Below, one piece after another: positions 1 through 36,099 of a DNA stretch of 37,389 nt. The stretch is taken from IMG/VR virus record IMGVR_UViG_3300026519_000030, positions 1 to 37,389 of that record; one strand, given 5' to 3'. The notes below the pieces were generated by a model. That model did not search any database. It was not told the origin of the DNA and saw nothing but the letters and a program-made list of their open reading frames with translations. How positions within the stretch are numbered: the first letter of the stretch is position 1; each line of letters begins with the position of its first letter. This stretch comes from a virus. The position numbers were made by a program, and so were the translations under genes.

Positions 1-173
1 AATCTTAATTTTGCCAATAATTGTTTACAAATGCAATCATTAACAAAATCTTAATTTTGCCAATAATTGTTTACAAATGCAATCATTAACAAAATCTTAA
101 TTTTGCCAATAATTGTTTACAAATGCAATCATTAACAAAATCTTAATTTTGCCAATAATTGTTTACAAATGCA
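1..173. repeat. 46-bp tandem repeat, about 3.75 copies
   Basis: Unit starts fall at 1, 47, 93 and 139, giving an exact 46-bp period. The last copy breaks off near 173. The copies read here show no differences. The unit is AT-rich and contains TTGTTTACA and CATTAACAAA blocks. No open frame crosses it. The array could be iterons of an origin, a regulator-binding array, or a slippage repeat at which assembly stopped; the sequence does not decide. From 174 to 263 the DNA stays extremely AT-rich, with a short direct repeat of ATTAATAAATTG near 211-236, and nothing codes. Confidence 0.9.
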
Positions 174-263
174 CATTGTTAATTATACGTAATAAAACCT
201 TAATATTTGATTAATAAATTGATTAATAAATTGATTATTTTTTATGCGTTATTTTAATGTTTT

Positions 264-318
264 ATTAACATAAACATGATATTATTAATAATGATGAAAA
301 ACAAAAGGGAAAATAAAA
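264..318 (+). promoter_or_regulatory. Repeated leader, copy 1
   Basis: This 55-bp stretch is identical to 825-879, ending just before an ATG in both. It contains the perfect 12-bp palindrome ATTATTAATAAT (281-292), a -35-like TTAACA, an AATAAT -10-like hexamer about 16 bp downstream, and an AAAAGGGA ribosome-binding segment. Only the downstream part of the longer leader is conserved here; the upstream GTTAAT half-site is absent. Confidence 0.7.
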
Positions 319-498
319 ATGTTTGATATTAAAAAATTAGCCTCAAATAAATTATTTGACATTAACAAAATTTTAAAAATTAACTTTGACGTTGAATACA
401 AAAATAACGCATACATTATTAAACATAATAATGGGCAATCAATTTTCAATGATTTTTTATCGGCGAAAAATTTTATTGATAATAATTATTCGTGTTAA
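319..498 (+). CDS. Small hypothetical protein, cassette gene 1 (59 aa)
   Basis: An uninterrupted ATG-TAA frame of 59 codons, MFDIKKLASNK to DNNYSC. It begins exactly one leader-length after the conserved palindrome and behind the same AAAAGGGA ribosome-binding segment used by its neighbours, which is the main reason to call it real despite its size. The product is Lys/Asn/Ile-rich, small and without a signal peptide or membrane segment; I recognise no family. Its stop codon lies inside the next leader copy, so the gene and following leader are packed with no spacer. It forms the first of four like-oriented cassettes. Confidence 0.65.
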   Translation: MFDIKKLASNKLFDINKILKINFDVEYKNNAYIIKHNNGQSIFNDFLSAKNFIDNNYSC

Positions 499-559
499 TC
501 AAATATTAATATAAACATGATATTATTAATAATGATGAAAAACAAAATGGAGACAAACA
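481..559 (+). promoter_or_regulatory. Repeated leader, copy 2
   Basis: Matches copies 3 and 4 over the first 70 bp with three differences. Carries palindrome ATTATTAATAAT at 522-533 and the GTTAAT-N5-ATTAAT inverted element at 494-510, where the last base of the second half-site differs from the other copies. The ribosome-binding segment reads ATGGAGA rather than AAGGGA. The last codons of cassette gene 1 lie inside it. Confidence 0.7.
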
Positions 560-802
560 ATGTTTATACAATTCAATGCAATTAAAAATATGGCTCATTC
601 ATGCAAAGATGAAGTTGATCGTTTTGCCATTAAAATAAATGGTGCAATGTCAAAATTAAAAAAATACGCCGAATTTGAATTTGAAATCACTTCATTTGAC
701 GAATCTGATTTATTCATTGATGGTGTTGATAATTATTCAATAACAATTGAAACATTGGGTGTTGATGCACAAACGGTTTTTGTGTTGAACATTAATGAAT
801 AA
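560..802 (+). CDS. Small hypothetical protein, cassette gene 2 (80 aa)
   Basis: An 80-residue acidic protein starting MFIQFNAIKN, preceded at good spacing by TGGAGA in leader copy 2. The N-terminal half looks helical and mixed-charge; the C-terminal half alternates hydrophobic and polar residues as in beta strands (ITIETLGVD, TVFVLNI). No transmembrane segment, Cys cluster or catalytic motif is visible and I recognise no family. Its stop codon touches the start of leader copy 3. The position, an AT-rich block of tiny genes each with its own promoter-like leader beside the packaging operon, fits early-expressed host-takeover or anti-defence proteins, which is inference only. Confidence 0.75.
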   Translation: MFIQFNAIKNMAHSCKDEVDRFAIKINGAMSKLKKYAEFEFEITSFDESDLFIDGVDNYSITIETLGVDAQTVFVLNINE

Positions 803-879
803 TAATTATTCATGTTAATCAAATATTAACATAAACATGATATTATTAATAATGATGAAAAACAAAAGGGAAAATAAAA
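801..879 (+). promoter_or_regulatory. Repeated leader, copy 3
   Basis: Identical to copy 4 over 71 bp (801-871 against 1101-1171) and to copy 1 over 55 bp. It has an inverted element GTTAAT-CAAAT-ATTAAC at 814-830, then palindrome ATTATTAATAAT at 842-853, then AAAAGGGA. Candidate promoter elements are TTAACA (826-831) and AATAAT (848-853) with a 16-bp spacer, so the 12-bp palindrome would overlap the -10 element, as expected for an operator. Confidence 0.75.
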
Positions 880-1098
880 ATGATTGATTTTACGACTGAA
901 CAACTCGCCGCACTACATAAATATGTGAATGACTCAAAAATTATTTGCAAAAACTCCAAGGTGTCATTTAATGTCGCACATAAAAAATTGATGCATGAAT
1001 ATGACCAATGTGTTGAAATATCCACATTATCAGACGCCGATAATTATGTTATCGACTTTTTTTCCATGCGATACAATTTATGCCATAAATTTGATTAA
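880..1098 (+). CDS. Small hypothetical protein, cassette gene 3 (72 aa)
   Basis: A 72-residue protein, MIDFTTEQLA to CHKFD, directly behind leader copy 3 with AAGGGA about 9 bases before the ATG. It has three Cys and four His residues scattered without a clear zinc-finger spacing. The N-terminal third is predicted helical. No family recognised. It has the same orientation, AT-rich codon use and packing as the other cassette genes; the next leader begins three bases after its stop. Confidence 0.75.
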   Translation: MIDFTTEQLAALHKYVNDSKIICKNSKVSFNVAHKKLMHEYDQCVEISTLSDADNYVIDFFSMRYNLCHKFD

Positions 1099-1100
1099 AT

Positions 1101-1179
1101 AATAATTATTCATGTTAATCAAATATTAACATAAACATGATATTATTAATAATGATGAAAAACAAAAGGGAGAAGTAGA
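1101..1179 (+). promoter_or_regulatory. Repeated leader, copy 4
   Basis: A 71-bp exact match to copy 3, starting exactly 300 bp downstream of it. Palindrome ATTATTAATAAT at 1142-1153 and the GTTAAT/ATTAAC inverted pair at 1114-1130. It diverges only in the last bases, where the ribosome-binding segment becomes GGGAGAAG. Confidence 0.75.
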
Positions 1180-1560
1180 ATGAAAAATAATGAGATTAAA
1201 CGTGCAATTGATTATATTCAACAAAAAACAAGTGACGATTGTCGCGTATTTATTCAAAACATTTGTTTAAATGAGTTTGATGATGATGATTTTAAATTGT
1301 TGTGTAAAATGGATCAAATGGGATACAAAACGCGCAATGAGTTCAGCGACATGGTAGTGTTGTCTGAGCCGTCTAACAACAATGATGTAGTCAAATGGCT
1401 GAAACAGATTGATGAAATATTAAAGAATCACAAATACACTGTGACGATAGATTTAAATGTGTTGGACAAAAAAAATGAATGTCATTGGGTGGAAGGCGAA
1501 ACACATTTCGAAGATCAATTCGTGATTTATGTTGTGCGCATCGATCTAATTGACAAATAA
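1180..1560 (+). CDS. Hypothetical acidic protein, cassette gene 4 (126 aa)
   Basis: The largest of the four cassette genes. It is rich in Asp/Glu (a DDDD run near residue 34), consistent with a soluble acidic protein; small acidic phage proteins sometimes mimic DNA or bind host enzymes, but nothing here proves that. The C-terminal third has a beta-like pattern (VTIDLNVLD, QFVIYVVRID). A GGGAGAAG ribosome-binding site lies just upstream. GC content rises slightly in the second half. No recognised family and no membrane segment. It is followed by a decayed fifth leader rather than another cassette. Confidence 0.8.
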   Translation: MKNNEIKRAIDYIQQKTSDDCRVFIQNICLNEFDDDDFKLLCKMDQMGYKTRNEFSDMVVLSEPSNNNDVVKWLKQIDEILKNHKYTVTIDLNVLDKKNECHWVEGETHFEDQFVIYVVRIDLIDK

Positions 1561-1590
1561 TTGAACATAATTAAACATGATTAACACGCG

Positions 1591-1630
1591 CAATTATTGT
1601 GCTTGTTAATCGAATGTTAACATAAACATG
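1591..1630 (+). promoter_or_regulatory. Degenerate fifth leader copy
   Basis: The stretch keeps GTTAAT-CGAAT-GTTAAC followed by ATAAACATGA, matching the upstream half of the leader, then departs completely at about 1630 where the palindrome should begin. The DNA beyond is clearly less AT-rich. It marks the end of the cassette array and a likely recombination junction. Confidence 0.55.
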
Positions 1631-1890
1631 ACGTTGCCCACCGCCCAACGCTTCAAAAAATCAAAGGCGCTACTTACCTGCTTTCTAGTTTTAGCGCTAT
1701 TCAAAACCGGGTTTTACATATCACAAACCAACAAGGCGCTACCACACAATCGTCTTACGCCAATTACTCAACTGCAATAATGCTATTCAACGATAACGTC
1801 CACCTTGTCGAAACCCAATACGGCACTAGCTAACACGCCAGCAAAGTGGTTTTTAAGACTCCTCTACTGCGGTTTTATGCACATGGTTAA
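1630..1890 (+). pseudogene. Coding-like frame without a start codon (possible gene remnant)
   Basis: Between cassette 4 and the terminase there is no conventional gene. One frame is open for 67 codons (1630-1830), then has TAA at 1831-1833, then continues 18 codons in the same frame to TAA at 1888-1890. Its composition looks protein-like (GATYLLSSFSAIQ, SYANYSTAIMLFND), but it has no ATG, GTG or TTG near its beginning and starts right at the leader junction. The SYxxYxTxI pattern vaguely recalls a family of small phage proteins, from memory only. A competing ATG frame at 1628-1780 gives 50 aa with one hydrophobic stretch but no ribosome-binding site. It may be a 5'-truncated gene, or not coding at all. 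Confidence 0.3.
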
Positions 1891-1933
1891 CGGTTATAAA
1901 AGGTCCCAGCTTGAGGACCCCACCGGTATCTAT

Positions 1934-1968
1934 TTTACAAAACCTATTTCCTGCATTATACTATCTAC
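1934..1968 (+). promoter_or_regulatory. Sigma70-like promoter abutting the terminase start
   Basis: TTTACA (1934-1939), a 17-bp spacer, then TATACT (1957-1962). The usual start point about 7 bases after the -10 element is 1969, the A of the terminase ATG. There is no Shine-Dalgarno sequence between promoter and ATG. This predicts a leaderless transcript for the late operon. A small hairpin (GGTCC/GGACC) lies just upstream, near 1902-1920. Confidence 0.6.
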
Positions 1969-4503
1969 ATGGAAATAAAAAATAGAATAACTATTGAACA
2001 TGTGCGAAACCTGCCAGCAGACCTTCAAGCTGAGTGGTGGAGCAGTCTGACACCCGAAGAAGCTGACGGTTACTTGCATAGCTGGGAGTTCTTAGCGCGA
2101 GATGAGCAGCTCCCCCCAGAAGGCGACTGGACGCATTGGTTATACTTAGCGGGACGGGGAGCAGGCAAAGCCCTGGCGCTAGACACGCCTATTCTCACAG
2201 TAAACCGTAGCTGGACGACCATGGGCGAACTCACGACTGACGACGTTATCTTTGACGACGAAGGCAAGCCCACTGCTATACTGCAAGTTCACCCGGTTCA
2301 GGAGAAACGTACCTGCTTCAAGATTATCTTTGACGAGGGGCATATCGTAGCTGATGGCGACCATTTGTGGGAAGTTGATACCTGGTTTCAAAACCATCCG
2401 CGTATGCGTCGCCATGTTATCTCTACTTTTAAACTGCGTAATATGCAAAGCACGTTTGATCGTCCTCGCCACTCAATAAAGACAACGAAGCCTCTGCAAT
2501 ACCCAGAAGCAGAAATCCCCGATCCATACCAGACTGGTTTACTGATGGGATCAGGTTTGCTGAAAGACAACTTGCCCGTTACCCGGATCGTGACAACGAA
2601 GCATCTCGAATCCTCGGTAGAGCAAAGGGTTGCGCTGCTGCGCGGATTGATGGATCTTGGGGGTTGCATCACAGAGACTGGCGCGTATGAATTTTCAACA
2701 CACGATTTCGAGTTAATGAAAAGCGTTATGCCCCTTATCTGGGGGCTTGGCATGTCGTCAAAACGTAGGTTTCGAGGGGAAGCTGTCCTGGAGCACTATG
2801 CTTGTTTTCGCTCAGATGATTTTAACTTCCTTACTGGACAAGAATGTTCACCTGTAAGAAGGCGGTTGATACGTAGTATTGAAAGCGTGAAAAAGCAGTC
2901 AGTGCGCTGTATTACTGTGGATTCACCCTCCAAACTGTTCTTAGCTGGGCGGCAACTCATACCCACGCACAATACACGCACCGGGGCGGAATCTGCTAGG
3001 CAGAAAGTTAAGGAAGGTTGCATGCGCTTAGGTTTAATAGCGCCCACAGCGTCTGACGCGAGGGACGTTATGGTTGAGGGGGAGAGCGGTATACTTGCGA
3101 CTTCGTGGGAGAATGATGTCGACTGCAAAGGTAATGAGATGGGGAAACCGTTATACGAGCCCTCGAAAAGGCGGTTGACTTGGGACAATGGCGCGATCGC
3201 GACATTATACTCGGCTGATGAACCGGAACGGTTACGGGGTCCTCAGCATGATTATATCTGGGCGGATGAACTGTGCGTAGCTGAGGGCACCACTATTTCA
3301 ACGCCTTCGGGAGATGTTAAGATTGAAGACATTAAAGTAGGCGATCTTGTTACGACAAGGGCCGGGCCTCAACGGGTTTTAAATTCAGGCAAGACGGATC
3401 GTACTTTGAAGACGCTTTTTCTTTTGCTCAAGGACGGGTCCGCGCTGGAGGCTACACCAAACCATCCTATTATGACAAGGACGGGTTGGCGTGCGATGAA
3501 AGATCTACGCGTCTCAATTGACCAAGTTATAACTGAATGTGGTCATGCTAGTATTGAAATGATAATACCTAACAAATTTCATCGTTGGGTTGAGGTTTAC
3601 AATATTGAAGTAGAGGAATTTCACGAGTATTTTGCAAATGGTATACTAACGCATAATTGCTCCTGGCGGCGCCCAGAGACATGGGATCTTGCCATGTTTG
3701 GTTTACGCCTCGGTCGTAATCCCCAGGCTTTCATCTCGACAACGCCAAAGCCCAAGAAGCTTATAATGGAGCTGCTTAACGACCCTAGCTGCGTTGTCAC
3801 TAAAGGCACCACATATGACAACAGGGCTAACCTAGCTGAGAATTTCTTTAAAACTGTTATTACCAAGTATGAAGGCACTCGGCTTGGTTCGCAGGAATTG
3901 CTTGGCGTTCTACTTGAGGAAGCTGAAGGGGCGTTATGGTCAAGGGAGATACTAGACGCGACGCGTGTTAGGGAGTTTGATTGGAAGCGCGATGCGGTTA
4001 GGATTGTGGTTGCAGTGGATCCTGCTATAACGAGCAATAAAGAAACCTCAGACGAGTGCGGAATAATCGTTGCAGCCATCGACTCCGTTGGTCACGGCTT
4101 TGTCTTAGCTGATTATAGCGGTATCTATACGCCTGCAACATGGGCTAAGAAAGCTGTTAAAGCGTACAAAATGTTTGAAGCGGACCGCATCGTAGCTGAA
4201 GGCAATCAAGGCGGCGAAATGGTGAAGCACACTATTCTAACAGAGGATAGCGCGGTACCTGTTAAAATAGTTCATGCCTCAAGAGGTAAGGCCGCACGCG
4301 CCGAGCCCATCTCCTCACTCTTTGAGCAAAACCGAGCGCACATTGTGAGCAGTTTAACTCAGCTTGAGGATCAGTTATGCACATGGGAACCGCTATCTGG
4401 AACAGCTTCCCCTGATAGGCTAGACGGGATGGTGTGGGCTCTAACTGAGTTGATGATAGGTAAAGGCGTAACAGGTGTGGGTAAATTGACCGGTGCGTTT
4501 TAA
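1969..4503 (+). CDS. terL: Terminase large subunit precursor with two inteins (844 aa)
   Basis: DNA-packaging motor: ATPase plus headful nuclease that loads DNA through the portal. Removing the two inteins (residues 68-335 and 436-563) leaves a 448-residue protein, a normal length for the family. Joined, it shows Walker A GRGAGKT (residues 62-67 joined to T336), Walker B-like YIWADEL (429-435) continuing into CSWRRPETWD, the nuclease acidic motif VVAVDPAITS, an AEGNQGG segment and the C-terminal DRLDGMVWALTEL typical of phage terminases. The start has no Shine-Dalgarno site and coincides with the predicted transcription start. No small terminase gene lies beside it, which is unusual. Both inteins interrupt the ATPase site, so the unspliced precursor should be inactive. 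Confidence 0.95.
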   Translation: MEIKNRITIEHVRNLPADLQAEWWSSLTPEEADGYLHSWEFLARDEQLPPEGDWTHWLYLAGRGAGKALALDTPILTVNRSWTTMGELTTDDVIFDDEGKPTAILQVHPVQEKRTCFKIIFDEGHIVADGDHLWEVDTWFQNHPRMRRHVISTFKLRNMQSTFDRPRHSIKTTKPLQYPEAEIPDPYQTGLLMGSGLLKDNLPVTRIVTTKHLESSVEQRVALLRGLMDLGGCITETGAYEFSTHDFELMKSVMPLIWGLGMSSKRRFRGEAVLEHYACFRSDDFNFLTGQECSPVRRRLIRSIESVKKQSVRCITVDSPSKLFLAGRQLIPTHNTRTGAESARQKVKEGCMRLGLIAPTASDARDVMVEGESGILATSWENDVDCKGNEMGKPLYEPSKRRLTWDNGAIATLYSADEPERLRGPQHDYIWADELCVAEGTTISTPSGDVKIEDIKVGDLVTTRAGPQRVLNSGKTDRTLKTLFLLLKDGSALEATPNHPIMTRTGWRAMKDLRVSIDQVITECGHASIEMIIPNKFHRWVEVYNIEVEEFHEYFANGILTHNCSWRRPETWDLAMFGLRLGRNPQAFISTTPKPKKLIMELLNDPSCVVTKGTTYDNRANLAENFFKTVITKYEGTRLGSQELLGVLLEEAEGALWSREILDATRVREFDWKRDAVRIVVAVDPAITSNKETSDECGIIVAAIDSVGHGFVLADYSGIYTPATWAKKAVKAYKMFEADRIVAEGNQGGEMVKHTILTEDSAVPVKIVHASRGKAARAEPISSLFEQNRAHIVSSLTQLEDQLCTWEPLSGTASPDRLDGMVWALTELMIGKGVTGVGKLTGAF
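2170..2973 (+). other. Intein 1 in terminase, class-3-like, with decayed LAGLIDADG domain (268 aa)
   Basis: Residues 68-335 of the precursor, inserted between the Walker A lysine (K67) and threonine (T336). Block A begins ALALDTPI, so residue 1 is Ala instead of Cys or Ser. Block B is ADGDHLW with Trp134, block F is RCITVDSP with Cys314, and block G ends PTHN with Thr333, His334, Asn335. Ala1 plus this Trp-Cys-Thr triplet is the signature of class 3 inteins, in which a block F Cys makes the first branched ester. The middle has LAGLIDADG-like motifs, GLLMGSGLL (190-198) and LLRGLMDLGG (223-232), in which the expected catalytic Asp positions read Ser and Gly, so the homing nuclease is probably dead. 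Confidence 0.9.
3274..3657 (+). other. Intein 2 in terminase, class 1 mini-intein (128 aa)
   Basis: Residues 436-563 of the precursor, inserted directly after the Walker B segment WADEL. Starts with Cys436 (CVAEGTTI), has block B TPNHPI (496-501) with the conserved His, block F YNIEVEEFHEYF and block G ILTHN ending at Asn563, followed by Cys564 as the +1 nucleophile. At 128 residues it has only the splicing domain, with no endonuclease. All canonical class 1 residues are present, so it should splice. It shares no close sequence similarity with intein 1, so the two were acquired separately. Confidence 0.93.
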
Positions 4504-4564
4504 AAACTAGTTAAAGACGTACCTTAACTGTGTTACAAGTACGAGAACAAGGTACGAGAAGAAA

Positions 4565-5992
4565 ATGTCTGATAGTATAACAACGCAGCACCGCTACTAC
4601 AACCGTTACACCGCCCAGTGGGACAAGGTACGTCATTGTATTGAGGGTGAGGACACGATCAAAGATCAGTCAACCCGCTACCTTCCTCAGCCATCTGGGC
4701 AGACAATTAATGAGTACGAATCCTACCGTACGCGAGCGTCTTTCTATTCAGTAGCAGAACGTACGTTACGCGGAATGACGGGCATGATATTCCGCAACGA
4801 ACCTGTTTTGCGATTACCGGAGGCGCTTAATCCGTGGAGAGTAGCGGCTACGAACGAGCTTATGTGCTTGCAGATGTTTATAGAAGAGGTAACTCGTGAG
4901 GTTATTGCGATGGGGCGTTACGGCGTCTTGCTAGATTTTCCAGCTGGTGCGAGCGTGGGAACATTGCCGCATATGGTAGCGTATAATACAGACAGTATTA
5001 TAAACTGGCGCGAGGAGTTCGTAAATGGCAAGAAAATTCTTACAAGCTTGACATTGAAAGATTCGCTTTCTGGGGACGATTCCACCGTGGATTCCAGCTG
5101 GCTTAAATTGGAACTTGTTGAAGGTATTTACACTGTGCAACGCTGGGCGATGGAACTTGTTGAAGGTAAACCTGTTGCGACTATGCGCGGCAGCGCTGTT
5201 ACGCCTACAGTTAATGGAGAATTGATTAAACATATTCCTTTTGTTTTCTTCAACCCATACGATCACAGGCCCGAGCCGTCGAAACCCCCGTTTATAGACC
5301 TGTGCAACATGAATCTTGCCCATTATCGCAATTCTGCAGATTATGAACATGCGTTATACCTGACAGCGCAACCGACACCGTGGGTCGCCGGGCAACTCGA
5401 CGAAAAGACTAAACCCACGGCTATCGGTTCAGGTACTATATGGTATCTTCCGGAAGACGCAAAAGCGGGAATGTTAGAATTTACAGGTAAGGGACTTGAG
5501 GCGCAGCGCATGGCTATGCAGGATAAAGAGGATCGCATGGCGTCTTTGGGCGCTCGAATGATAAAAGACACAACACGCGTGCAGGAGAAGGCTGAGACAG
5601 CAAGGCTGCGAACACGCGGCGAGACTTCACTCGTTCTGGACACTTTGCAGTCCGTGGAAAAAGGGCTTTCCATGTTAATGCGCCAGGCAGCTGTCTGGGT
5701 GGGGGCTGATCCGGATGAGGTGGAGCTCAGACTTAACCGCGACTTCGTGGACTCCAAGATTGACGCTAACATGCTAGCGGCGCTTGTTAAAACTTGGCAA
5801 ACGGGAGCTATATCCCGCGACACACTCCACGCGAACTTACAGCGCGGCGAGGTTATGGACATGGGACGTACGGCTGAAGAAGAAAAAGAGCTTATAGATG
5901 AGGAGGGTGAGTTTATACCCGACGCGGATGCACCCGTAAACCTCGGAGGAGACGGAATAGACATAACGCCTACGGTTCCAGGTGACAGATGA
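4565..5992 (+). CDS. Portal protein, DUF4055-type (475 aa)
   Basis: Forms the dodecameric ring at the capsid vertex through which DNA enters and to which the connector binds. Length, position directly after the terminase, and the N-terminal pattern (RASFYSVAERTLRGMTGMIFR around residues 58-78, then a helical segment with VIAMGRYGVLLDFP) fit the DUF4055 portal-like family. The middle has HIPFVFFNPY and a helix-rich region with MIKDTTRVQEKAETARLR near 338, and the C-terminus is acidic. The ATG follows an ACGAGAAG ribosome-binding segment. Its TGA overlaps the next start by 4 bases (ATGA), implying translational coupling. Function is inferred from family and gene order. Confidence 0.85.
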   Translation: MSDSITTQHRYYNRYTAQWDKVRHCIEGEDTIKDQSTRYLPQPSGQTINEYESYRTRASFYSVAERTLRGMTGMIFRNEPVLRLPEALNPWRVAATNELMCLQMFIEEVTREVIAMGRYGVLLDFPAGASVGTLPHMVAYNTDSIINWREEFVNGKKILTSLTLKDSLSGDDSTVDSSWLKLELVEGIYTVQRWAMELVEGKPVATMRGSAVTPTVNGELIKHIPFVFFNPYDHRPEPSKPPFIDLCNMNLAHYRNSADYEHALYLTAQPTPWVAGQLDEKTKPTAIGSGTIWYLPEDAKAGMLEFTGKGLEAQRMAMQDKEDRMASLGARMIKDTTRVQEKAETARLRTRGETSLVLDTLQSVEKGLSMLMRQAAVWVGADPDEVELRLNRDFVDSKIDANMLAALVKTWQTGAISRDTLHANLQRGEVMDMGRTAEEEKELIDEEGEFIPDADAPVNLGGDGIDITPTVPGDR

Positions 5993-7056
5993 CCGTAAAC
6001 GAAGATTTACTATCCTTTCAAATTGCTCAGCAGGTTAGGTGGCTGCGGCTTGCAAACTCCGAGGCACGATCGGCAAGGAAGTTACTCGCTAGCGTAGACA
6101 AAAAGCTCCAGTCCCTTATCCTGAGTATTGACGTAGACTACGGTCCTTTAACATACTCGCAAGCCAGGCTTGCCTCTTTGCGCAAACAAGTAAAGGACCT
6201 GCTTTACGCGACACACGCTGATGTTGCCGAGAAAGTAACCTCCTCCGTTCTAAGTATTGCAAACGCATCTGCCGACATCGAGGAAAAAGCTTTGCTGCTC
6301 AGCATCCCGGTAGCCATAGATGTGGTAACACCTAACCTAGGGGTACTCGCAACTGCTGCTAAGTTAACGCCTTTCCGTGGCGCAAACCTCGCGCAATGGC
6401 TCGAGGAGTTACGAGCTAACGACCTTAACCGCACAATGCGTACCATACAAGAAGGTTTAATCTCAGGTGAGGATACGCCGTCTATCGTCCGCAATGTAAT
6501 AGGGACACGAGGCTTGCAGTACAAGGACGGCATCCGCGAGGTATCGAGGCGCGGCGTTGAGATGCTTGTCCGTACAGCTGTTAATCACGCGGCGTCGATG
6601 GGTCGTCAAACTGTTTGGGAGGAAAACACTCACCTGATCTCATCTGTCCGCTGGGTCTCGACCTTGGATGGAAAGACGTCGGAAATATGCCGGTTCCGCG
6701 ATGGGAAAGTCTACCCTGTAGATTCAGGTCCCCGCCCACCAGCCCACCCTTCCTGCCGTTCTACGACAGTAGCGGTTACCAGGTCCTGGAGAGAACTCGG
6801 CTTCAACATTGACGAGATGCCTTTGGGTTCACGCGCCTCTATGAACGGTCAAGTGCCCGGTGAACTGACGTACTATGACTGGCTTAAAACACAACCTAAA
6901 ACTTTTCAAGTGGAAGTACTCGGTCCCCGACGGTATAAATTATGGCGAGGAGGTGGGGTTGAGTTAACCTCTTTTCATAACGACGCGGGCAACTTGCTTA
7001 CGCTGAAGGAGCTGAAGTCGAAGATGCCTGCTGCTTTCGACGCTGCTTTCGGTTAA
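5989..7056 (+). CDS. Phage head morphogenesis protein, Mu gpF/SPP1 gp7-like (355 aa)
   Basis: Minor head protein carried inside the capsid with the portal. The MuF signature occupies about residues 185-265: a helix RTAVNHAASMGRQ (195-207), then WVSTLDGKTSEICRFRDG with Cys234, and RPPAHPSCRSTT with His253 and Cys256, the Cys/His set usual in this family. The N-terminal 180 residues are helical. A roughly 95-residue tail follows the MuF core and ends AFDAAFG; its role is not apparent. Overlaps the portal by 4 bp. In the gene order terminase-portal-MuF-scaffold-coat it sits where expected. Confidence 0.88.
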   Translation: MTVNEDLLSFQIAQQVRWLRLANSEARSARKLLASVDKKLQSLILSIDVDYGPLTYSQARLASLRKQVKDLLYATHADVAEKVTSSVLSIANASADIEEKALLLSIPVAIDVVTPNLGVLATAAKLTPFRGANLAQWLEELRANDLNRTMRTIQEGLISGEDTPSIVRNVIGTRGLQYKDGIREVSRRGVEMLVRTAVNHAASMGRQTVWEENTHLISSVRWVSTLDGKTSEICRFRDGKVYPVDSGPRPPAHPSCRSTTVAVTRSWRELGFNIDEMPLGSRASMNGQVPGELTYYDWLKTQPKTFQVEVLGPRRYKLWRGGGVELTSFHNDAGNLLTLKELKSKMPAAFDAAFG

Positions 7057-7081
7057 GGTTATTAAATTAAAATTAATACCT

Positions 7082-7096
7082 GGTTGCATTTCAACC
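7082..7096 (+). terminator. Weak hairpin followed by TTTATTAT
   Basis: GGTTG-CATTT-CAACC followed by a T-rich run in the 126-base gap between the MuF and scaffold genes. A second, AT-rich imperfect hairpin lies just upstream (about 7055-7079). The 5-bp stem is weak; it may be a partial terminator or processing site that adjusts scaffold and coat expression. Confidence 0.3.
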
Positions 7097-7188
7097 TTTA
7101 TTATGAGTATTATTTCTATGACCTAATGATAGGCAGAGCCAGTCTCGAGGTCTAGGCAGAGCTGAAACTTTTACTAAGGAGTATGAAT

Positions 7189-7974
7189 ATGAGTGAATCC
7201 AACGCTGGTGGCGACGGAGGAGATAAAGTAGCATTGGATCCTAGTGATCCTCAAATTGCTGACCTTATCAACGCAGCAGTAAAATCCGCAACGGGTGGGC
7301 TTTCTTCAAAGAATAGCGAACTACTAGCGGAGAAGAAAGAGCTGTCTAGCAAGATGGCTGAACTGGAAAAACAATGGTCTGGATTTGATTCCGATCAGAT
7401 TAAAAACCTGATGGATAAGATCAACAACGACGAAGAGACTAAGCTTATCGCAGAGGGTAAGATTGACGAGGTTATTGACAAGCGCGTACAAGCGCTTAAA
7501 AATGATTACGAATCTAAGCTTGAAGCGGCTACTAGTAAAATAGGTGAGCTTGAAATCGGACTCGGAGAAAAGGATTCTAAGGTTAAGACTCTTATTGTGG
7601 ACGGACATGTCCGACAAGCAGCAAGTAAACTTAGCATTGTGCCTTCAGCCATTGATGACGTAATCCACAGAGCAAAACAAAAATTTGCTCTTGATGATAA
7701 AGACAAACCAGTTGCGCGTGACTCTGAAGGTTCACTTCTTATCGGTAAAAGCGGAAAAGACCCATTATCAGTTGAGGAGTGGCTCGATTCTATGAAAGAG
7801 ACAGCGCCTCATTGGTTTCCAGGATCCTCTGGTGCCGGAGCTGGTGGTGGAAAAGACGGAAAAGGCGGAGCCTATACCATTACTAAAACGGATGCGACTA
7901 ACCCGCAAGCGTATCGAGCCGCGAAAGAGGCAGCGACGAAGGCAGGAGTGCAACTCCAGATGGTAGATGGCTAA
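7189..7974 (+). CDS. Capsid scaffolding protein (261 aa)
   Basis: Internal scaffold that guides coat assembly and then leaves the prohead. Evidence is position between MuF and coat, a highly charged helical/coiled-coil composition (about residues 40-145, Lys/Glu-rich), a low-complexity Gly-rich linker (SGAGAGGGKDGKGG) and an Ala/Lys-rich helical C-terminus, the part that usually contacts coat. I chose the second of two nearby ATGs: AAGGAG at 7176-7181 is 7 bases before 7189 but only one base before the ATG at 7183. No protease motif is visible, so a scaffold-protease fusion is unlikely. Confidence 0.82.
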   Translation: MSESNAGGDGGDKVALDPSDPQIADLINAAVKSATGGLSSKNSELLAEKKELSSKMAELEKQWSGFDSDQIKNLMDKINNDEETKLIAEGKIDEVIDKRVQALKNDYESKLEAATSKIGELEIGLGEKDSKVKTLIVDGHVRQAASKLSIVPSAIDDVIHRAKQKFALDDKDKPVARDSEGSLLIGKSGKDPLSVEEWLDSMKETAPHWFPGSSGAGAGGGKDGKGGAYTITKTDATNPQAYRAAKEAATKAGVQLQMVDG

Positions 7975-27140: not shown

Positions 27141-27215
27141 AGACAGTTCCTAATCTCTGAGTTGTTTATCGCAGATTTTCTCATAAACTGTAAATTCTTT
27201 AGAAGGGAAACGGAT

Positions 27216-28949
27216 TTGCGGATCAGTGTAGAAAATGGTTGGGGAGTTATTGATGGTTTGACCTTGAGGCAGAGGCAGAAACTAGTCAAAGTACTCGAAA
27301 CACAAACTGAGATTATTGGTGATAGAGTCAAGTTTAAGCCGTCTATTAGCTCGATATTGCACTTGCGAGACGCCGGAGCAGAATTCGAGGATACTTGCAG
27401 GACAGCCTGGGCGGGTTTGTTTAAACAGCAGAATAAAAGCGCGGTTTTTGCATTCAAAACAAAACCTTATAAGCACCAGCTGGACGGTTTCGAAGCAGCA
27501 AAGAACCGTAAGTACTACGGCTTATTTTGGGAAATGGGCTTAGGTAAAACCAAGACGGCACTTGACATAGCAGCGTGGAAATATTCCCAGCACAGGATAA
27601 ATGGGTTGCTCGTTGTGACACTCAATGGTGTCCATCGAAATTGGATTAGGAAAGAGGTTCCGGCTCATTTCCCTTTTTCGAGCGCGGCGGCTTTCTGGGA
27701 CCCAAACCGCGTAGAACACGGCATGCGAGGTATTATAGAATCCGAGAAGTTTGCCATAGCCACTATAAATTTTGATTCTGTCCACACTAAGAAAGGGGAG
27801 CAGTTCTGCAAAAGGTTCCTGACTCAACGGAGAGCAATGATGGTCGTCGACGAATCCCATTGCATGAAAAGTCCTTCAGCAAGGCGAACAAGAGCAATAA
27901 TAAGGATTGGAAAGCTAGCAGCATCAAAGATGATTATGACAGGTACGCCCGTTGCGAACAGTCCTTTGGACGTGTTTAAACAGTTTGAGTTCTTGTCCCC
28001 TTCAATACTCCAAGAGAGGAACTACACTACATTCAAAAGGCGCTATGCAATAATGCAATCGATAGATCACCTGCCTTCCTATCATGCGCGCGACGAACGC
28101 GGTAAACTCAAGTATGCAAACGGGTTGCCTGTAATGGAGCCCATTAAGGAGATAGTGGGTTACAGGGATTTAGAACGTCTTACTCAGCTTATAGCCCCTC
28201 ATTCTTCTCGTAAAACGAAAGTAGAATGCCTTGATTTGCCGCCAAAAGTGTACCGTAGACACACTTTTCTTCTTCCACCTGATTACAAGAAAGCCTACAA
28301 CGCAATGCGGAGTGAAATGCTTCTAGAATTAAAAGATGGCAGGACCTCAACCGCTAAGATAGCATTAACAAAATTGTTAAAATTGCAGCAATTGACTTGC
28401 GGTTTTGTTGTGCCTGATGACCTTGATCCTTTTTGCACTGAGATAAAAGGTGAGGCTTTCTCAAAAACTAATCCTAGGCTAAAGGCGCTTCTTAAAGTGC
28501 TCGAAGAAGTGCAAAGTAAGGCAATAATTTGGGCGACATATCGTTACAGTATTTTAGAGATTGAGAGCGCTATTGTAGCTTTACACGGCAGGAACAGCGT
28601 CGTCACATTCTCAGGCATGACATCTGACAACGACCGGGACAAGGCAGAGGACGACTTCCAGGATGCTAAAAGTCCTGTTAGGTTCATGGTAGCGCAACCA
28701 CAAGCTGGTGGGACAGGAAGGACTTTCACAGCAGCAAGAGACGTTATCTACTGGAATAATTCCTACAATTTAATACACAGATTGCAATCTGAAGATAGAG
28801 CGCATAGAATTGGTCAGCTCGGAACTGTGACTTACACTGACCTTGAAGCTGAGGGAACTGTGGATGGTAAGATTATCGAAGCTCTAAAAAGCAAGGTGGA
28901 CATAGCGGCTCAGATTACAGGTGACAACCTTACCGACTGGTTGTCTTAA
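27216..28949 (+). CDS. SNF2-family DExH-box helicase/ATPase (577 aa)
   Basis: DNA-dependent ATPase/translocase of the replication or recombination module. I start at the TTG at 27216 because AGAAGGG lies 8 bases upstream; the frame is open to a TTG at 27162 with no such site. An N-terminal domain of about 80 residues precedes the helicase core. Motif I MGLGKTKTAL (Walker A at about 106-112), motif II DESH (about 212-215), motif III MTGTP, and C-terminal helicase lobe motifs QAGGTGRTF and the SNF2 hallmark DRAHRIGQ. Phage SNF2 proteins of this size usually remodel forks or promote strand exchange; the exact job is unknown. Confidence 0.88.
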   Translation: MRISVENGWGVIDGLTLRQRQKLVKVLETQTEIIGDRVKFKPSISSILHLRDAGAEFEDTCRTAWAGLFKQQNKSAVFAFKTKPYKHQLDGFEAAKNRKYYGLFWEMGLGKTKTALDIAAWKYSQHRINGLLVVTLNGVHRNWIRKEVPAHFPFSSAAAFWDPNRVEHGMRGIIESEKFAIATINFDSVHTKKGEQFCKRFLTQRRAMMVVDESHCMKSPSARRTRAIIRIGKLAASKMIMTGTPVANSPLDVFKQFEFLSPSILQERNYTTFKRRYAIMQSIDHLPSYHARDERGKLKYANGLPVMEPIKEIVGYRDLERLTQLIAPHSSRKTKVECLDLPPKVYRRHTFLLPPDYKKAYNAMRSEMLLELKDGRTSTAKIALTKLLKLQQLTCGFVVPDDLDPFCTEIKGEAFSKTNPRLKALLKVLEEVQSKAIIWATYRYSILEIESAIVALHGRNSVVTFSGMTSDNDRDKAEDDFQDAKSPVRFMVAQPQAGGTGRTFTAARDVIYWNNSYNLIHRLQSEDRAHRIGQLGTVTYTDLEAEGTVDGKIIEALKSKVDIAAQITGDNLTDWLS

Positions 28950-28995
28950 TTCAACTTAGTTATATTATTAATTTCAAATTGAGAAAGGGTTTATT

Positions 28996-29544
28996 ATGGA
29001 TAATTTTTTAGACGAGATTGAACTGGACACAGAAGTACCTAGTGACTCTGCTTTAAACAAAGTAGCGGAACTTGCGACTGTTCAGATTAAATTGGAAGGC
29101 GAACTTGACAGAGCCGAGAAAAAGGTAAAAGATATCAAAGTAAAACTTATAAAAGTTAGTAACGAGCAGCTCCCTGAGGCAATGGCTGAAGCCAAACTAG
29201 CAGAGTTTAAACTGGAATCAGGGCAGACAGTTTCTATAAAAGAGGAACTCACATGCTCGGTACCTGCCAAACGTAGAGCCGAGATTATTGCGAAACTACG
29301 CGAGGATAGGTTTGACGAGCTTATACTTAACATAGTTGAAATAGACTTCGACAAAGGGCAAGATAACTTAGCAGGCGACGTGCTAGGTCATGCAGAAGAA
29401 TTAGGGTTGCTCGCAAAGCGTACTGAAAAAGTGCATACCGCCTCACTTAAGAAGTATTTGCGGGAGAAATTAAATAAAGGAGAGGAAGTGGATCTATCAT
29501 TTTTTGGAGCCTTCCTGCTTAGACACTCTAAAATTAAACAGTAA
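28996..29544 (+). CDS. Hypothetical coiled-coil protein (182 aa)
   Basis: An acidic N-terminus (MDNFLDEIELDTEVPSDS) is followed by a coiled-coil segment (about 25-55, LATVQIKLEGELDRAEKKVKDIKVKLIKV) and an alpha/beta region (LAEFKLESGQTVSIKEELTCSVPA, then FDELILNIVEIDF). Many phages carry a protein of this layout beside helicase and SSB genes, but I know no proven function. The C-terminal part (TASLKKYLREKLNKGEEVDLSFFGAFL) is typical of that group. It follows the SNF2 gene by about 45 bases with its own ribosome-binding site and precedes the SSB-like gene. Confidence 0.75.
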   Translation: MDNFLDEIELDTEVPSDSALNKVAELATVQIKLEGELDRAEKKVKDIKVKLIKVSNEQLPEAMAEAKLAEFKLESGQTVSIKEELTCSVPAKRRAEIIAKLREDRFDELILNIVEIDFDKGQDNLAGDVLGHAEELGLLAKRTEKVHTASLKKYLREKLNKGEEVDLSFFGAFLLRHSKIKQ

Positions 29545-29570
29545 ACTTTTAAACAACCAGGAGAAGAGTA

Positions 29571-30440
29571 ATGAGTAAAAAAGAAGTACAAGTAAAGGAA
29601 GAAAGTAAGGACGTTGTCATTGACAGCTTCTTAGACGAACTAACAGCAGATTCAGAGACGTACAAGGAGTCGCTGTCGCAAGATGATATGGCGATACCGT
29701 TCCTTGTGATACTCCAAGCATTGTCTCCTGCTTGCACAGAGGGGGACCCAGGTTACATTGAAGATGCAAGACCCGGCATGCTCTTCAACACAGTTACCAA
29801 GGAAGTTTACGACGCCAAGAAAGATCCCCTTTTGATATTACCAGTAGCTTACAAATCTAGTTACATTGAGTGGGTTCCTCGTTCAACAGGTAAAGGTGGT
29901 TTTGTGGCAGAACACTCGGCGGCAGGAGGTTTGCAAGCTATAACGATACGAAATGATGATAACGAGGACATTGTCCAAGCAAATTCGCCTATCGGGCAAC
30001 CGGGTAATCAGCTCGCTTATACGCATACGCACTTTATCTTCGTTATCGATAAAGATACAGGAATAGGAGAACCTGCTGTGCTGACGATGGCAAGTTCGCA
30101 GATTAAGCACTCGAAGAAGTTTAATCAAATGGTTAACAACCTCAAGCTACCTAACTCAAACAAAGGTGCGCCTAGATTCTTTGGCATATGGGAGCTTTCG
30201 ACTGAACTTGAAACCAAAGGCGACAACAAGTGGCAATCGTGGTCATTTAAAAAGAGTTCTGACGTTGTAGAATTTAAGGGCGGCAAAGAACTTTACCATT
30301 CTGCAAAAGAGTTTAATGATGGTCTAAAATCCGGGGAGCATAAAGCGGAGTATGACAAGGTAGCACCTGAAGCGAGAGAAAACCCCTCCTTAGACCCCGT
30401 ACCTGCTGACGCAGAAGAAGATAGTGAAATACCTTTCTAA
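29571..30440 (+). CDS. Putative single-stranded DNA-binding protein (289 aa)
   Basis: No OB-fold domain is certain by eye, but the C-terminus is highly acidic and ends ADAEEDSEIPF, the acidic tip with terminal Pro-Phe that bacterial and phage SSBs use to recruit partners. The core has strands such as DPLLILPVAYKSSYIEWVPR (about 84-103), FIFVIDKDTGIGEPAVLTMASSQ and PRFFGIWELSTELE, then an SWSFKKSSDVVEF end strand. Position between SNF2 helicase and primase supports an SSB role. Similar proteins in other phages are often unannotated. An AGGAGAAG ribosome-binding site precedes the ATG. Confidence 0.65.
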   Translation: MSKKEVQVKEESKDVVIDSFLDELTADSETYKESLSQDDMAIPFLVILQALSPACTEGDPGYIEDARPGMLFNTVTKEVYDAKKDPLLILPVAYKSSYIEWVPRSTGKGGFVAEHSAAGGLQAITIRNDDNEDIVQANSPIGQPGNQLAYTHTHFIFVIDKDTGIGEPAVLTMASSQIKHSKKFNQMVNNLKLPNSNKGAPRFFGIWELSTELETKGDNKWQSWSFKKSSDVVEFKGGKELYHSAKEFNDGLKSGEHKAEYDKVAPEARENPSLDPVPADAEEDSEIPF

Positions 30441-30450
30441 GGAACTTTAA

Positions 30451-32007
30451 ATGCCAAATACTGCGGAAAGATTTATGCAACTTTACCGTGGTTACGAATT
30501 ACGGCACGGACAGTATACAATTACTCGAGAAGAATTATCGGGTAAACTAAGTGGACGTGCCGACACGGTGGATAAAGCTCCATCGTTACAGGACTACAAA
30601 GATCATCTTGATGGAAAAAAAGGTATAGGCATTATCCCGCTAACGAATAAGAATCTAGCTTATTTTGCAGCTATAGATATTGACAACTACTCGATGGACG
30701 TAAATGATCTTGTATGGCGAGTTAGAAAGCTACCTGTTTTTGTGACCCGGTCAAAGTCTGGCGGTGCCCATGTCTGGTTATTTTGCCCGGAGGGAGCGCC
30801 TGCTTGTCTACTTGTTCATGTGTTAAAGCACTGGGCGGGAGAGCTGGGAGTTGGGGGATCCGAGATTTTCCCAAAGCAGACAGCCCGCGCGTCTAAGGAG
30901 GACATAGGCAACTGGATCAACATGCCATACTTCGGGAGTTCTCGTGTCTGCGTAGTTGTCGATGATGCCAAGAAGCAGACATTTAAAGAGCTCAGCATAG
31001 ACGAGTTCCTGGACTTTACAGAGAAATACTCTGTCAAAGTAAACTCCGATTACTTAAAGAATGAAGCGCCCAAAGTAACTTCAAGAGCAGAGAAAGGCTC
31101 GAAGAAGGACTTTGTAGATGGGCCTCCTTGCTTACAAAGGATATGGAATGACGCGCCGCCTGAAGGCGGCAGAAATAAGTTTTTCTTTAACCTGGCAGTC
31201 TACCTTATGCGTAAATATAACTCAGAAGATACTGTAGAAGCCAAGTGCGTAGCCTATAACGAGCAATTGGCTGACCAGAAATTGCCTTTGCAGGAGCTTA
31301 AAACTACAATAAAGTCAGCAATACGCAAGGAGTACGGATTCCAATGCCAACAAGAGCCTTTAAAAAGTTTCTGCCAACGAGCGGAATGCCTTAAAAGGAC
31401 TTTTGGTGTGGGATCAAGATCGCTCGACATGCCTTTCGAGATAGGTGGATTTTCCAAGATACTAACTAACCCGCCTATGTATGGGTTCAATGTTGACGGT
31501 ATTCGGGTCGTCATTAAGTCCTCGCATGAACTACTTAACCAGAAGAGATTTCGTGCTTACATTGTCGACGCGTCGTCTAAGATAATGCCTATACTTCAGC
31601 AACAGAAGTTTGATGAATTGATGCAGGACTGGCTTGACCACGCGGAAGATGTTGTGCCGCCACCAGACGCGGATGCCCGTACGCAGATAATAGACGCTTT
31701 GCGCGAATTTGTAGAGAGCAGGAGTCACGTGCAACGCGACAGATTACTGAAAGGCCATGCTTTTATAGACGAAGAAACGCAGCGGGTTTATTTCAGGATA
31801 AATGACTTTAAAAGGTACTTAAAGCAGAACCATGTAGTATTTGACGATAGAGACTTGCACCAATATCTACGAGAGAAAGCAGGAGTAACTTACGACGACA
31901 AAGGTACTACCATCCGTGATAAATCAGTACGCTTATGGAGCGCGCCTATCGGAGAATTGTTATCAAGTGAGGAAGTTGAACCAGTACCTCCTGACGAGGT
32001 ATTCTGA
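30451..32007 (+). CDS. Archaeo-eukaryotic primase, TOTE-type (518 aa)
   Basis: Primase-polymerase that could start DNA chains. AEP motif I is AIDIDNY with Asp76 and Asp78; motif II is SKSGGAHVWLF with Ser103 and His107; motif III lies in EIFPKQ (about 139-144). These match the AEP domain of the TOTE group. Residues about 225-315 resemble a PriCT-like zinc-containing domain (PPCLQRIW, NKFFFNLAVYLMRK, then a Cys cluster in YGFQCQQEP, KSFCQRAECLKRTFGVG). The C-terminal ~190 residues form a further domain I do not recognise. The TGA overlaps the helicase ATG. No DNA polymerase gene is in the window, so this may do more than prime. Confidence 0.87.
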   Translation: MPNTAERFMQLYRGYELRHGQYTITREELSGKLSGRADTVDKAPSLQDYKDHLDGKKGIGIIPLTNKNLAYFAAIDIDNYSMDVNDLVWRVRKLPVFVTRSKSGGAHVWLFCPEGAPACLLVHVLKHWAGELGVGGSEIFPKQTARASKEDIGNWINMPYFGSSRVCVVVDDAKKQTFKELSIDEFLDFTEKYSVKVNSDYLKNEAPKVTSRAEKGSKKDFVDGPPCLQRIWNDAPPEGGRNKFFFNLAVYLMRKYNSEDTVEAKCVAYNEQLADQKLPLQELKTTIKSAIRKEYGFQCQQEPLKSFCQRAECLKRTFGVGSRSLDMPFEIGGFSKILTNPPMYGFNVDGIRVVIKSSHELLNQKRFRAYIVDASSKIMPILQQQKFDELMQDWLDHAEDVVPPPDADARTQIIDALREFVESRSHVQRDRLLKGHAFIDEETQRVYFRINDFKRYLKQNHVVFDDRDLHQYLREKAGVTYDDKGTTIRDKSVRLWSAPIGELLSSEEVEPVPPDEVF

Positions 32008-33500
32008 TGTTAACACTTGTACTGGGCGGACCGGGGTGCGGTAAAACCACAGCTTTGCTTGACATTATCGACGGGCTTTTCGAGAAAGGGGTCTCTTCTC
32101 ATCGCGTGGGTTATTTAACTTTCACACGGAAAGCAGCTCACGAGGGGAGAGAAAGATGTTCTGAAAAGTTCGGCATCCACCCCGACGACTTGCCCTACTT
32201 CAGTACATTGCACTCCTTTGCGTTCCAACAACTCGCCTTGTCTCCGGCGGAGATTATGTCGCAGAGTAATTATGTAGAATTCGGAAATCACATTGGCCTA
32301 GAACTAACCCGCGGTCCTTTGTCTGAAGAAGGCTTTCTCTTTACAGGAAGTAGATTACGCGGAGATACGTTCTTGGCATTAATCTCGTTTGCCAGGATAA
32401 CGCAACGTACTTTGCAGGAGGTTTGCGCTGACGCGAAAGTTGACTTCGCAGAAGCCGAGTGGATCAGGAAGTCGCTTGAACTGTTTAAACAGTCGCGAGG
32501 CGTTATGGACTTTACAGATTTACTTGACACGTACCTTGTGAAAGGCGACGTACCTTGTCTAGAAGCGCTTATTGTGGATGAAGCGCAAGACCTATCTGCG
32601 CTACAATGGAGGATTATCGAAAAACTCGCAGCTAATACGCCTATTCAGTATTTTGCGGGTGACGATGACCAGGCTATTTATGAGTGGGCGGGAGCAGACG
32701 TGGAGTACTTTCTTTCTTTAAAAGGTGTAAAACGCGTACTACCTGTGTCTTACAGGTTAAAACGTAACATTTTCAATATTTGCCAAAGCATCGTGGGCAA
32801 CATAGGTAAGCGTTTCGAGAAGCAGTGGGAGCCTCACGCGGAAGGAGGAAGTGTCGAGCGAGTAAACAGGATTGAACACGTGAAAATTGAACCAGGCACG
32901 TGGTTAATGTTAGCGCGGAATAAGTACTTGCTGAACGCGATAAAAGAGTATCTCTACTTCAAAGGTTTCCCGTTTGTTTACGATGGCGAGTCGTCAATAG
33001 ATAATGACAAAGTCAGAGCCATATTGTACTGGGAAAATTTGCGTAAAGGTAGATCAGTTACAGGCAAACAAGCCAAGCTGGTGTACGCCCATCTGCGTAA
33101 GAACCTAATTGACAGGAAAGAACCAGCTGTGGGTGATGAGGAACCCGTTACCATAACGCAGTTAACTGATGATAACGGTTTGAGAACAACAGAAACGTGG
33201 ATGAGCGCCTTGCGTATGCCTGAGCATGAAAGAGAGTACTACCGAGAAATAAAGCTGCGCGGCGAGTCGCTTATAGACGCGCCTAGAATAACCCTTTCTA
33301 CAATTCATGGGGTAAAAGGAGGGGAATCAGACCATGTCCTACTCGTAACTGATATGTCCCTTGCGGCTTACAAGCAACTTGTAACAGAACCTTCCTCGGA
33401 GTCCAGGGTTTTTTACGTCGCTGCATCTAGAGCGCGCGAAAGCCTGACTATACTGAACCCGTTAACCAGCAAGTTTTATCCGTTAGGAGAATCGCTATGA
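32007..33500 (+). CDS. UvrD/Rep-like superfamily 1A helicase (497 aa)
   Basis: DNA helicase probably acting with the primase. Motif I GGPGCGKTTALL (7-18), motif Ia GYLTFTRKAAHEG, a TLHSFAFQQL motif, motif II VDEAQDLS (about 191-198), motif III GDDDQAIYEWAGAD, motif IV VSYRL, motif V TIHGVKGGESDHVLLV and motif VI FYVAASRARESL are in order. It is shorter than cellular UvrD (about 700 aa), as in several phage helicases, with reduced accessory domains. Overlaps neighbours on both sides (TGATG upstream, ATGA downstream), forming one operon with primase. Confidence 0.92.
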   Translation: MLTLVLGGPGCGKTTALLDIIDGLFEKGVSSHRVGYLTFTRKAAHEGRERCSEKFGIHPDDLPYFSTLHSFAFQQLALSPAEIMSQSNYVEFGNHIGLELTRGPLSEEGFLFTGSRLRGDTFLALISFARITQRTLQEVCADAKVDFAEAEWIRKSLELFKQSRGVMDFTDLLDTYLVKGDVPCLEALIVDEAQDLSALQWRIIEKLAANTPIQYFAGDDDQAIYEWAGADVEYFLSLKGVKRVLPVSYRLKRNIFNICQSIVGNIGKRFEKQWEPHAEGGSVERVNRIEHVKIEPGTWLMLARNKYLLNAIKEYLYFKGFPFVYDGESSIDNDKVRAILYWENLRKGRSVTGKQAKLVYAHLRKNLIDRKEPAVGDEEPVTITQLTDDNGLRTTETWMSALRMPEHEREYYREIKLRGESLIDAPRITLSTIHGVKGGESDHVLLVTDMSLAAYKQLVTEPSSESRVFYVAASRARESLTILNPLTSKFYPLGESL

Positions 33501-33751
33501 CGCAATCCACTTTCATGTCGTTCGCGGAAGCAGCGGTGTCAAACTTATTCGGTATTGCTCTATCAGTACTGGTGCAAATGGTTGTCTTTTCAGTTTATGA
33601 TATTGAGGTATCCCTCATTGACAACTTAAGTATTGTGCTTATCTTTACAGTGGTAAGCATAATACGAACTTTTATCTTTCGCCGCTTGTTCAACTGGCTG
33701 GGAGAGAAACCTTTAAACTATATTAGGAGAAAACTTAAATGGAACATTTGA
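33497..33751 (+). CDS. Small membrane protein, DUF7220-like (84 aa)
   Basis: Two hydrophobic segments, about residues 16-33 (LFGIALSVLVQMVVFSVY) and 43-58 (NLSIVLIFTVVSIIRTF), then a basic C-terminus (RRLFNWLGEKPLNYIRRKLKW). The SFAEAAVSNLFGIALS start and SIIRTFIFRRLFNWL end match a small phage membrane family I know as DUF7220-like; the identification is from memory of the pattern. Overlaps the helicase stop (ATGA) and the next start. Function unknown. Confidence 0.7.
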   Translation: MTQSTFMSFAEAAVSNLFGIALSVLVQMVVFSVYDIEVSLIDNLSIVLIFTVVSIIRTFIFRRLFNWLGEKPLNYIRRKLKWNI

Positions 33752-35765: not shown

Positions 35766-36099
35766 AAACGCAATTACCGATGCTATTAAAATCCTTAGGA
35801 GAATTCGTCAATATGGATATTCGATGGATCATGACCTTGCTAAGGTAGAATCCGCGGAGATGAAGCTAAGTAAGATACTTAAGGCTAGAGAAATATTGAA
35901 AAACGATCCAATCTTTAGCCGCGGAGACAAGGTTCGTAAAAAAGGAAATAAGGGTCAATGGCACGGTGTTATATGTGGAGAATATAGCACAGCCATAACG
36001 CCAGAAGGTTATGCTGTAGAAAGTGTTTATGAAAAAGGAAGCGTGCAAATTTATCCTGTAAATGCGCTGGAGAAATGGGAGAAAATAAATGAAAAATGA
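35755..36099 (+). CDS. Type II (R67/DfrB-like) dihydrofolate reductase homologue (114 aa)
   Basis: Residues 54-107 align by eye with plasmid R67 dihydrofolate reductase over the SH3-like barrel: [10 protein letters not shown] for [20 protein letters not shown] for [10 protein letters not shown], and [12 protein letters not shown] for [13 protein letters not shown]67 active-site positions Lys32, Gln67, Ile68 and Tyr69 correspond to Lys62, Gln98, Ile99 and Tyr100. One residue is inserted before Trp69 and R67 Trp45 is Glu76. The family works as a tetramer with one pore and gives trimethoprim resistance. Unlike R67 it has a 53-residue helical N-terminal extension. Activity is unproven; it could instead be an SH3-like adaptor. 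Confidence 0.85.

Follow-up and report, generated by a model that had tools for sequence, protein, structure and literature searches.

The terminase gene and its two inserts

The window, by which we mean the whole stretch of DNA that was analysed, spans 37,389 bases and constitutes one IMG/VR virus record. Its plus strand carries, at positions 1969 to 4503, an 844-aa open reading frame that by its motifs and domains is the precursor gene of a large terminase subunit (TerL), combining a Walker A/Walker B ATPase with an RNase H-like nuclease. Pfam matched Terminase_6N at aa 570-662 (E 5e-13) and Terminase_6C at aa 682-826 (E 1e-13) of this frame, and also found a Hint domain inside it. The surrounding genes, as recognized by Pfam, encode a portal protein (DUF4055), a Mu F-like head protein, a P22-type coat protein, a tail tube, a tape measure and baseplate proteins, a neighborhood that looks as expected for a tailed phage. 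Elsewhere in the window, a replication block (27162-33500) encodes an SNF2 helicase, Pam3 gp33- and gp34-like proteins, an AEP-TOTE primase and a UvrD helicase; Pfam scans of this block showed no further inteins. The window also contains a 177-aa homologue of 6-pyruvoyl tetrahydropterin synthase (QueD-like; 33739-34272; PF01242, E 5e-31) and, at 35755-36099, a 114-aa frame resembling R67-type dihydrofolate reductase (PF06442, E 2e-18), which is an unusual phage gene.

The initial annotation had placed two inteins at the two halves of one terminase ATPase site, and the extein alignment bears this out. Excision of aa 68-335 and 436-563 leaves a 448-aa extein that is 62 to 67% identical to four intein-free TerLs (L004, L005, L006, and L008), with zero gaps at both junctions. 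The N-extein (aa 1-67; 1969-2169) ends in the Walker A sequence GRGAGK (2152-2169). The middle extein (aa 336-435; 2974-3273) runs from Walker A Thr336 to the Walker B sequence YIWADE (3253-3270) and Leu435, and the Asp433-Glu434 pair of Walker B is invariant across 42 aligned rows. The C-extein (aa 564-844; 3658-4500) opens with the Cys at position +1 and, as judged from Terminase_6C and the alignment, contains the RNase H-like nuclease domain. Such inserts are not a chance result, because neither the E values of the intein matches nor positions exactly at motif boundaries would be expected by chance. A structural model of the whole precursor was matched by Foldseek to terminases (Sf6 gp2 and D6E TerL), to PI-SceI and to class 3 inteins. 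The second insert was poorly predicted in that model (pLDDT 23 to 44 over most of its length) because no aligned row covers it, and we therefore folded it alone.

Two inteins of different classes

Intein 1 (aa 68-335, 268 aa; 2170-2973) has the junctions K67/A68 and N335/T336, where the slash marks the insertion point. Because the extein aligns without gaps to intein-free TerLs, the intein can be placed precisely between Lys67 and Thr336 of Walker A, the position given for it in the initial annotation. Its first residue is Ala68, so that the Cys, Ser or Thr nucleophile is missing from position 1; its block B reads DGDH-x-W, with D129-x-x-H132 followed by W134; and it ends in T333-H334-N335, with the nucleophile T336 at position +1. 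These are the features of class 3 inteins, whose definition and chemistry have been described (PMC6195587, PMC7664689). The characteristic WCT triplet is made up of Trp134 in block B (intein position 67; 2368-2370), Cys314, the block F nucleophile (intein position 247; 2908-2910), and Thr333 in block G (intein position 266; 2965-2967), followed by His334-Asn335.

When viral contigs were scanned with a codon-degenerate pattern for His-Asn preceding TRTG[AG]E, the continuation of Walker A, 17 viral stretches were recovered, 15 of them TerLs. When the window's intein was aligned with those of 11 relatives, the block B Trp, the block F Cys and the terminal Thr-His-Asn were invariant in all 12, and none of the 12 had Cys, Ser or Thr at position 1. 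A profile built from five class 3 inteins (the window's and those of four relatives) and compared with the PDB matched the class 3 DnaB inteins 6rix, 6riy and 6bs8 best (E about 1e-34), followed by gp41-1 entries at 2e-10 (an engineered WCT) and 2e-7. Class 3 membership, which the initial annotation had proposed from Ala1 and the triplet, is thus well supported by sequence. A class 2 intein, or a degenerate class 1 intein that has lost its N-terminal nucleophile, would by itself account for Ala at position 1; we consider either very improbable, as the WCT triplet and the block B DxxH are both present, the triplet is common to all of the aligned Walker A homologues, and the PDB profile is much nearer to class 3 than to class 1. 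Two other contigs (L101 and L102) have a TerL whose N-terminal half, with the start of the Walker A intein, is out of frame with what follows, which reflects a frameshift or a sequencing error.

Intein 2 (aa 436-563, 128 aa; 3274-3657; junctions L435/C436 and N563/C564) begins just after Walker B, one residue past the catalytic Glu434, again as first annotated. It has the residues of a class 1 mini-intein, namely C436, TPNH in block B (T496-x-x-H499), H562-N563 and C564, and it was matched by Pfam Hint_2 and NCBIfam intein_Cterm. Among intein-only chains in the PDB, the class 1 RecA intein of Mtu was closest to its profile (E about 2e-14). Folded alone, intein 2 gave an AF2 model with a pLDDT of 94.2, whose best Foldseek matches to solved inteins had TM scores of 0.81 to 0.89; it is thus confidently modeled as a Hint fold. 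Block F has Asn (VYN) at a position where class 1 inteins usually, though not by strict definition, have Asp; the relatives with an intein at the nearby Walker B site W/CDEL have N, C or D there. The splicing blocks were looked for in both inserts, and every terminal and block residue required for splicing is present, so both inteins look able to excise themselves. The class 1 assignment in the initial annotation therefore holds, while its description of the two inteins as unrelated was too strong, since their classes differ but the Hint fold is common to both.

Compared with W/CDEL, the common Walker B site, the insertion point of intein 2 (DEL/C) is shifted downstream by four residues. Codon-degenerate patterns recovered no second intein at DEL/C from 2.9 million viral contigs or from bacterial genomes, where three matches sat in frames of 27 to 68 aa and were dismissed as chance. 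The outcome of this search hinges on which extein residues make up the pattern, and records closely similar to the window may have been passed over. Of 25 intein-free relatives, 9 also have Cys at the position of Cys564, the closest among them. The sister terminase described below differs at both positions, reading WCDELAS, as do phages with a W/CDEL intein, which suggests that the residues flanking that intein came in together with it. In a tree, intein 2 sits on a long branch without a supported grouping, and its origin is not placed by the tree.

Related terminases and loss of the homing endonuclease

The sister of the window's TerL (79% identity; support 100/99) lies at positions 3998-7723 of a 70-kb contig (L003; IMG/VR 3300037722_000708) and contains three inteins: a class 3 intein in Walker A, at the same site as intein 1 and with intact LAGLIDADG motifs; a class 3 intein at VEGE/S, a site also occupied in Microbacterium phage Pumpernickel; and a class 1 mini-intein at W/CDEL, inside Walker B. 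Two further terminases were completed from their records. One (L153; IMG/VR 3300035670_000243) has two inteins, class 3 in Walker A and class 1 in Walker B; the other (L152; IMG/VR 3300020027_000006; 49-4785, 1578 aa) has three, including a class 3 intein in Walker A. All three genes resemble the window in that one TerL combines a class 3 intein at Walker A with one of class 1 at Walker B. They differ from it in that their Walker B intein is at W/CDEL, four residues upstream, and in that the LAGLIDADG motifs of their Walker A inteins are intact; L003 and L152 additionally have the third, class 3 intein. Each of these two three-intein terminases combines two class 3 inteins with one class 1 intein, and together they occupy four different sites. 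The initial annotation regarded the combination in the window as unusual. This view is weakened by these three terminases and by the class 3 and class 1 inteins of Mycobacterium smegmatis DnaB, as the pairing of classes is not unique; what does set the window apart is the DEL/C site, unique in our survey, and the apparent immobility of both inteins.

A scan for the W/CDEL site added 28 viral stretches to L003, with L153 and L152 among them, and the inteins whose start was in view were all of class 1. Walker A was in view in 23 W/CDEL TerLs and was intact in 20 and interrupted in 3, a possible excess of Walker A inteins in counts that include near-duplicates among the 20 and have no matched base rate. 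Searches of the viral contigs with peptides back-translated from each intein alone gave no match, the chosen peptides not being conserved, and the extein-profile scan was biased toward intein-free genes, as its patterns span both insertion points. One W/CDEL terminase (L136; IMG/VR 3300031251_000016) has two class 1 inteins, at W/CDEL in Walker B and at RVDA/C in the nuclease domain.

The larger class 1 inteins at W/CDEL are themselves of interest. They are 266 to 348 aa long, and their middle reads as filler rich in Ser, Thr, Ala and Arg. All 15 that we tested (L113, L115, L116, L121, L122, L123, L125, L128, L131-L133, and L135-L138) have a long out-of-frame ORF within the central 150 to 250 codons, across which the intein frame also stays open. 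Five of these ORFs were scanned, and each proved to be a zinc-finger HNH endonuclease (HNH_3, E 7e-12 to 2e-18). In several pairs of inteins, substitutions pile up at position 2 of the intein-frame codons, which serves the HNH frame as its wobble position; in one example pair, the counts at intein-frame codon positions 1, 2, and 3 were 22, 83, and 47 of 227, respectively. It looks as if these larger inteins hide a homing endonuclease in another frame. An out-of-frame HNH is known from phage methylases, in an insert that is not an intein (PMC11855218); the literature that we searched contained none inside a splicing intein.

Intein 1 contains the remains of a LAGLIDADG endonuclease, which the initial annotation had missed. 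Alignment with endonuclease-bearing relatives, whose motifs take the forms GxWLG[DN]G and G[LM]xD[TS]DG, identifies a degenerate first motif at 2536-2556 (GLLMGSG; consensus GxWLGDG) and a degenerate second motif at 2644-2664 (GLMDLGG; consensus GLxDTDG), and the catalytic Asp is lost from both. Much of the stretch between the two motifs is missing as well, leaving a shortened domain. The LAGLIDADG_3 model scores 13.3 bits in intein 1, below its cutoff of 22.5, compared with passing scores of 29 to 31 bits in L003 and in another relative, L099. Intein 2 has no endonuclease, and a LAGLIDADG domain with both catalytic Asp residues is thus found in neither intein. With the endonuclease of intein 1 decayed and intein 2 lacking one, both look unable to home on their own and are probably immobile.

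The splicing part of intein 1 has fared differently. Between the window and L099, pN is 0.29 for the extein, 0.30 for the Hint part of intein 1 and 0.53 for the endonuclease remnant. Since the Hint part diverges like the extein and the remnant much faster, this comparison suggests that intein 1 is under selection for splicing alone: its splicing part appears to behave like an essential part of the terminase, and its endonuclease remnant does not. Between the window and L003, pN of the Hint part (0.29) exceeds that of the extein (0.18). Synonymous sites are saturated, so dN/dS could not be computed and the argument is carried by pN. Both inteins have long branches in their trees (1.6 and 1.77), and mild splicing defects are possible for that reason.

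Probable maturation by two splicing reactions

The reading that we favor, and consider very probable, is that the TerL precursor matures through two autocatalytic splicing reactions, one class 3 and one class 1, carried out by separate former mobile elements that are now inherited with the terminase. On the class 3 route, Cys314 of block F would attack the Lys67-Ala68 bond, the N-extein would then be transferred to Thr336, and Asn335 would cyclize, restoring the P-loop GRGAGK-T. On the class 1 route, Cys436 would form a thioester, transesterification to Cys564 would follow, and cyclization of Asn563 would restore the Walker B sequence WADEL-C. A continuous ATP site would need both reactions. 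The initial annotation held that ATP cannot be bound before both inteins are removed; the precursor very probably lacks a P-loop and is expected to be inactive, and from the anatomy of the gene it is likely that assembly of the full site requires both excisions. A P-loop intein in P. horikoshii RadA is reported to disrupt ATPase activity, as cited in PMC6195587. The dead endonuclease of intein 1 and the lack of one in intein 2 argue for inheritance with the gene, and both inteins would have been kept because failed splicing would ruin an essential protein. Endonuclease-less inteins persist since their precise loss is rare.

The initial annotation went further and had two independent splicing events gate packaging. 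Read as a claim about regulation, this finds no backing here, no sequence result having a bearing on timing or control. In such a scheme, one or both reactions would be conditional, for instance redox-sensitive through Cys314, and would act as a checkpoint on the start of packaging. In M. smegmatis DnaB, oxidation indeed inhibits the class 3 P-loop intein but not the class 1 intein (PMC6195587), the same idea was proposed for a two-intein TerL by the authors of the Mic1 study (PMC7156551), and both inteins of the window are kept despite having no working endonuclease, with the splicing part of intein 1 conserved. Against this, nothing in the window points to regulation, relatives carry none, one or three inteins, and retention would be expected anyway, as in an essential gene an intein must either keep splicing or be lost exactly. 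We therefore regard conditional splicing as unlikely, and we are equally doubtful of its fuller form, in which two immobile and chemically different inteins are kept to lock maturation in two steps, two separately sensitive splicing reactions have to take place before the ATPase is active, and intein 2 marks a site, DEL/C, unseen elsewhere in the survey. It is more economical to read the inteins as two once-mobile elements that are now passed on with the gene, and splicing would then be constitutive. Somewhat less likely again is that one insert does not splice, or only cleaves, leaving a broken gene or a split terminase. The long branches, the Asn in block F of intein 2 and the short, decayed middle of intein 1 would fit this, yet both inteins retain all terminal and block residues needed for splicing, the Hint part of intein 1 and the extein show about the same degree of conservation when compared with L099, and the frame is intact, with ATPase and nuclease motifs retained. 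An assembly chimera is the least probable of these alternatives: the contig is from an uncultivated source and the site of intein 2 was not found elsewhere, but the gene is one continuous ORF, its sister has the same intein 1 site together with an intein in Walker B, and the Walker A/Walker B pairing recurs among independent contigs.

With the other states seen among relatives (three inteins with active-looking endonucleases, one intein, or none), TerL in this phage group offers a natural series for intein gain, site shift and endonuclease decay. The pairing recurs in the wider survey, and TerL ATPase motifs therefore attract inteins of both classes. The window's TerL is also a natural construct for asking whether splicing reactions of two chemistries proceed independently of each other within a single precursor.

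Each single element of this gene is of a known kind. In mycobacteriophages, TerL is the main intein host, the Lys/Thr site is TerL1-a and TerL1-e is a Walker B site (Kelley et al. 2016, PMC5050341). According to the sections of that paper that we consulted, TerL1-a has the identical P-loop insertion point to intein 1, and the ATPase domain is an intein hot spot in which class 3 inteins are found. The same sections assign the TerL1-c and TerL1-e inteins to class 3, whereas the Walker B-side insert of the window is class 1, and they describe no two-intein TerL; compared with the inteins they cover, neither of those in the window has a working endonuclease. Our literature search found no report of exactly a Walker A class 3 intein with a Walker B class 1 intein in TerL. 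M. smegmatis DnaB (PMC6195587) likewise joins an endonuclease-less class 3 P-loop intein (DnaBi1) and a class 1 intein (DnaBi2) in one ATPase, but it is a helicase, and its class 1 intein lies in the H4 DNA-binding loop and has kept its endonuclease. The TerL of Microcystis phage Mic1 (PMC7156551) also has two different inteins, in its ATPase and nuclease domains, neither of them at Walker A. The crAss-like Delta TerL (PMC7886860) again has two inteins per TerL, which are of another type, Hint-Hop, in a TAG-recoded gene. The window joins these systems as a clear example of inteins of class 3 and class 1 converging on a single ATP site, one at each half.
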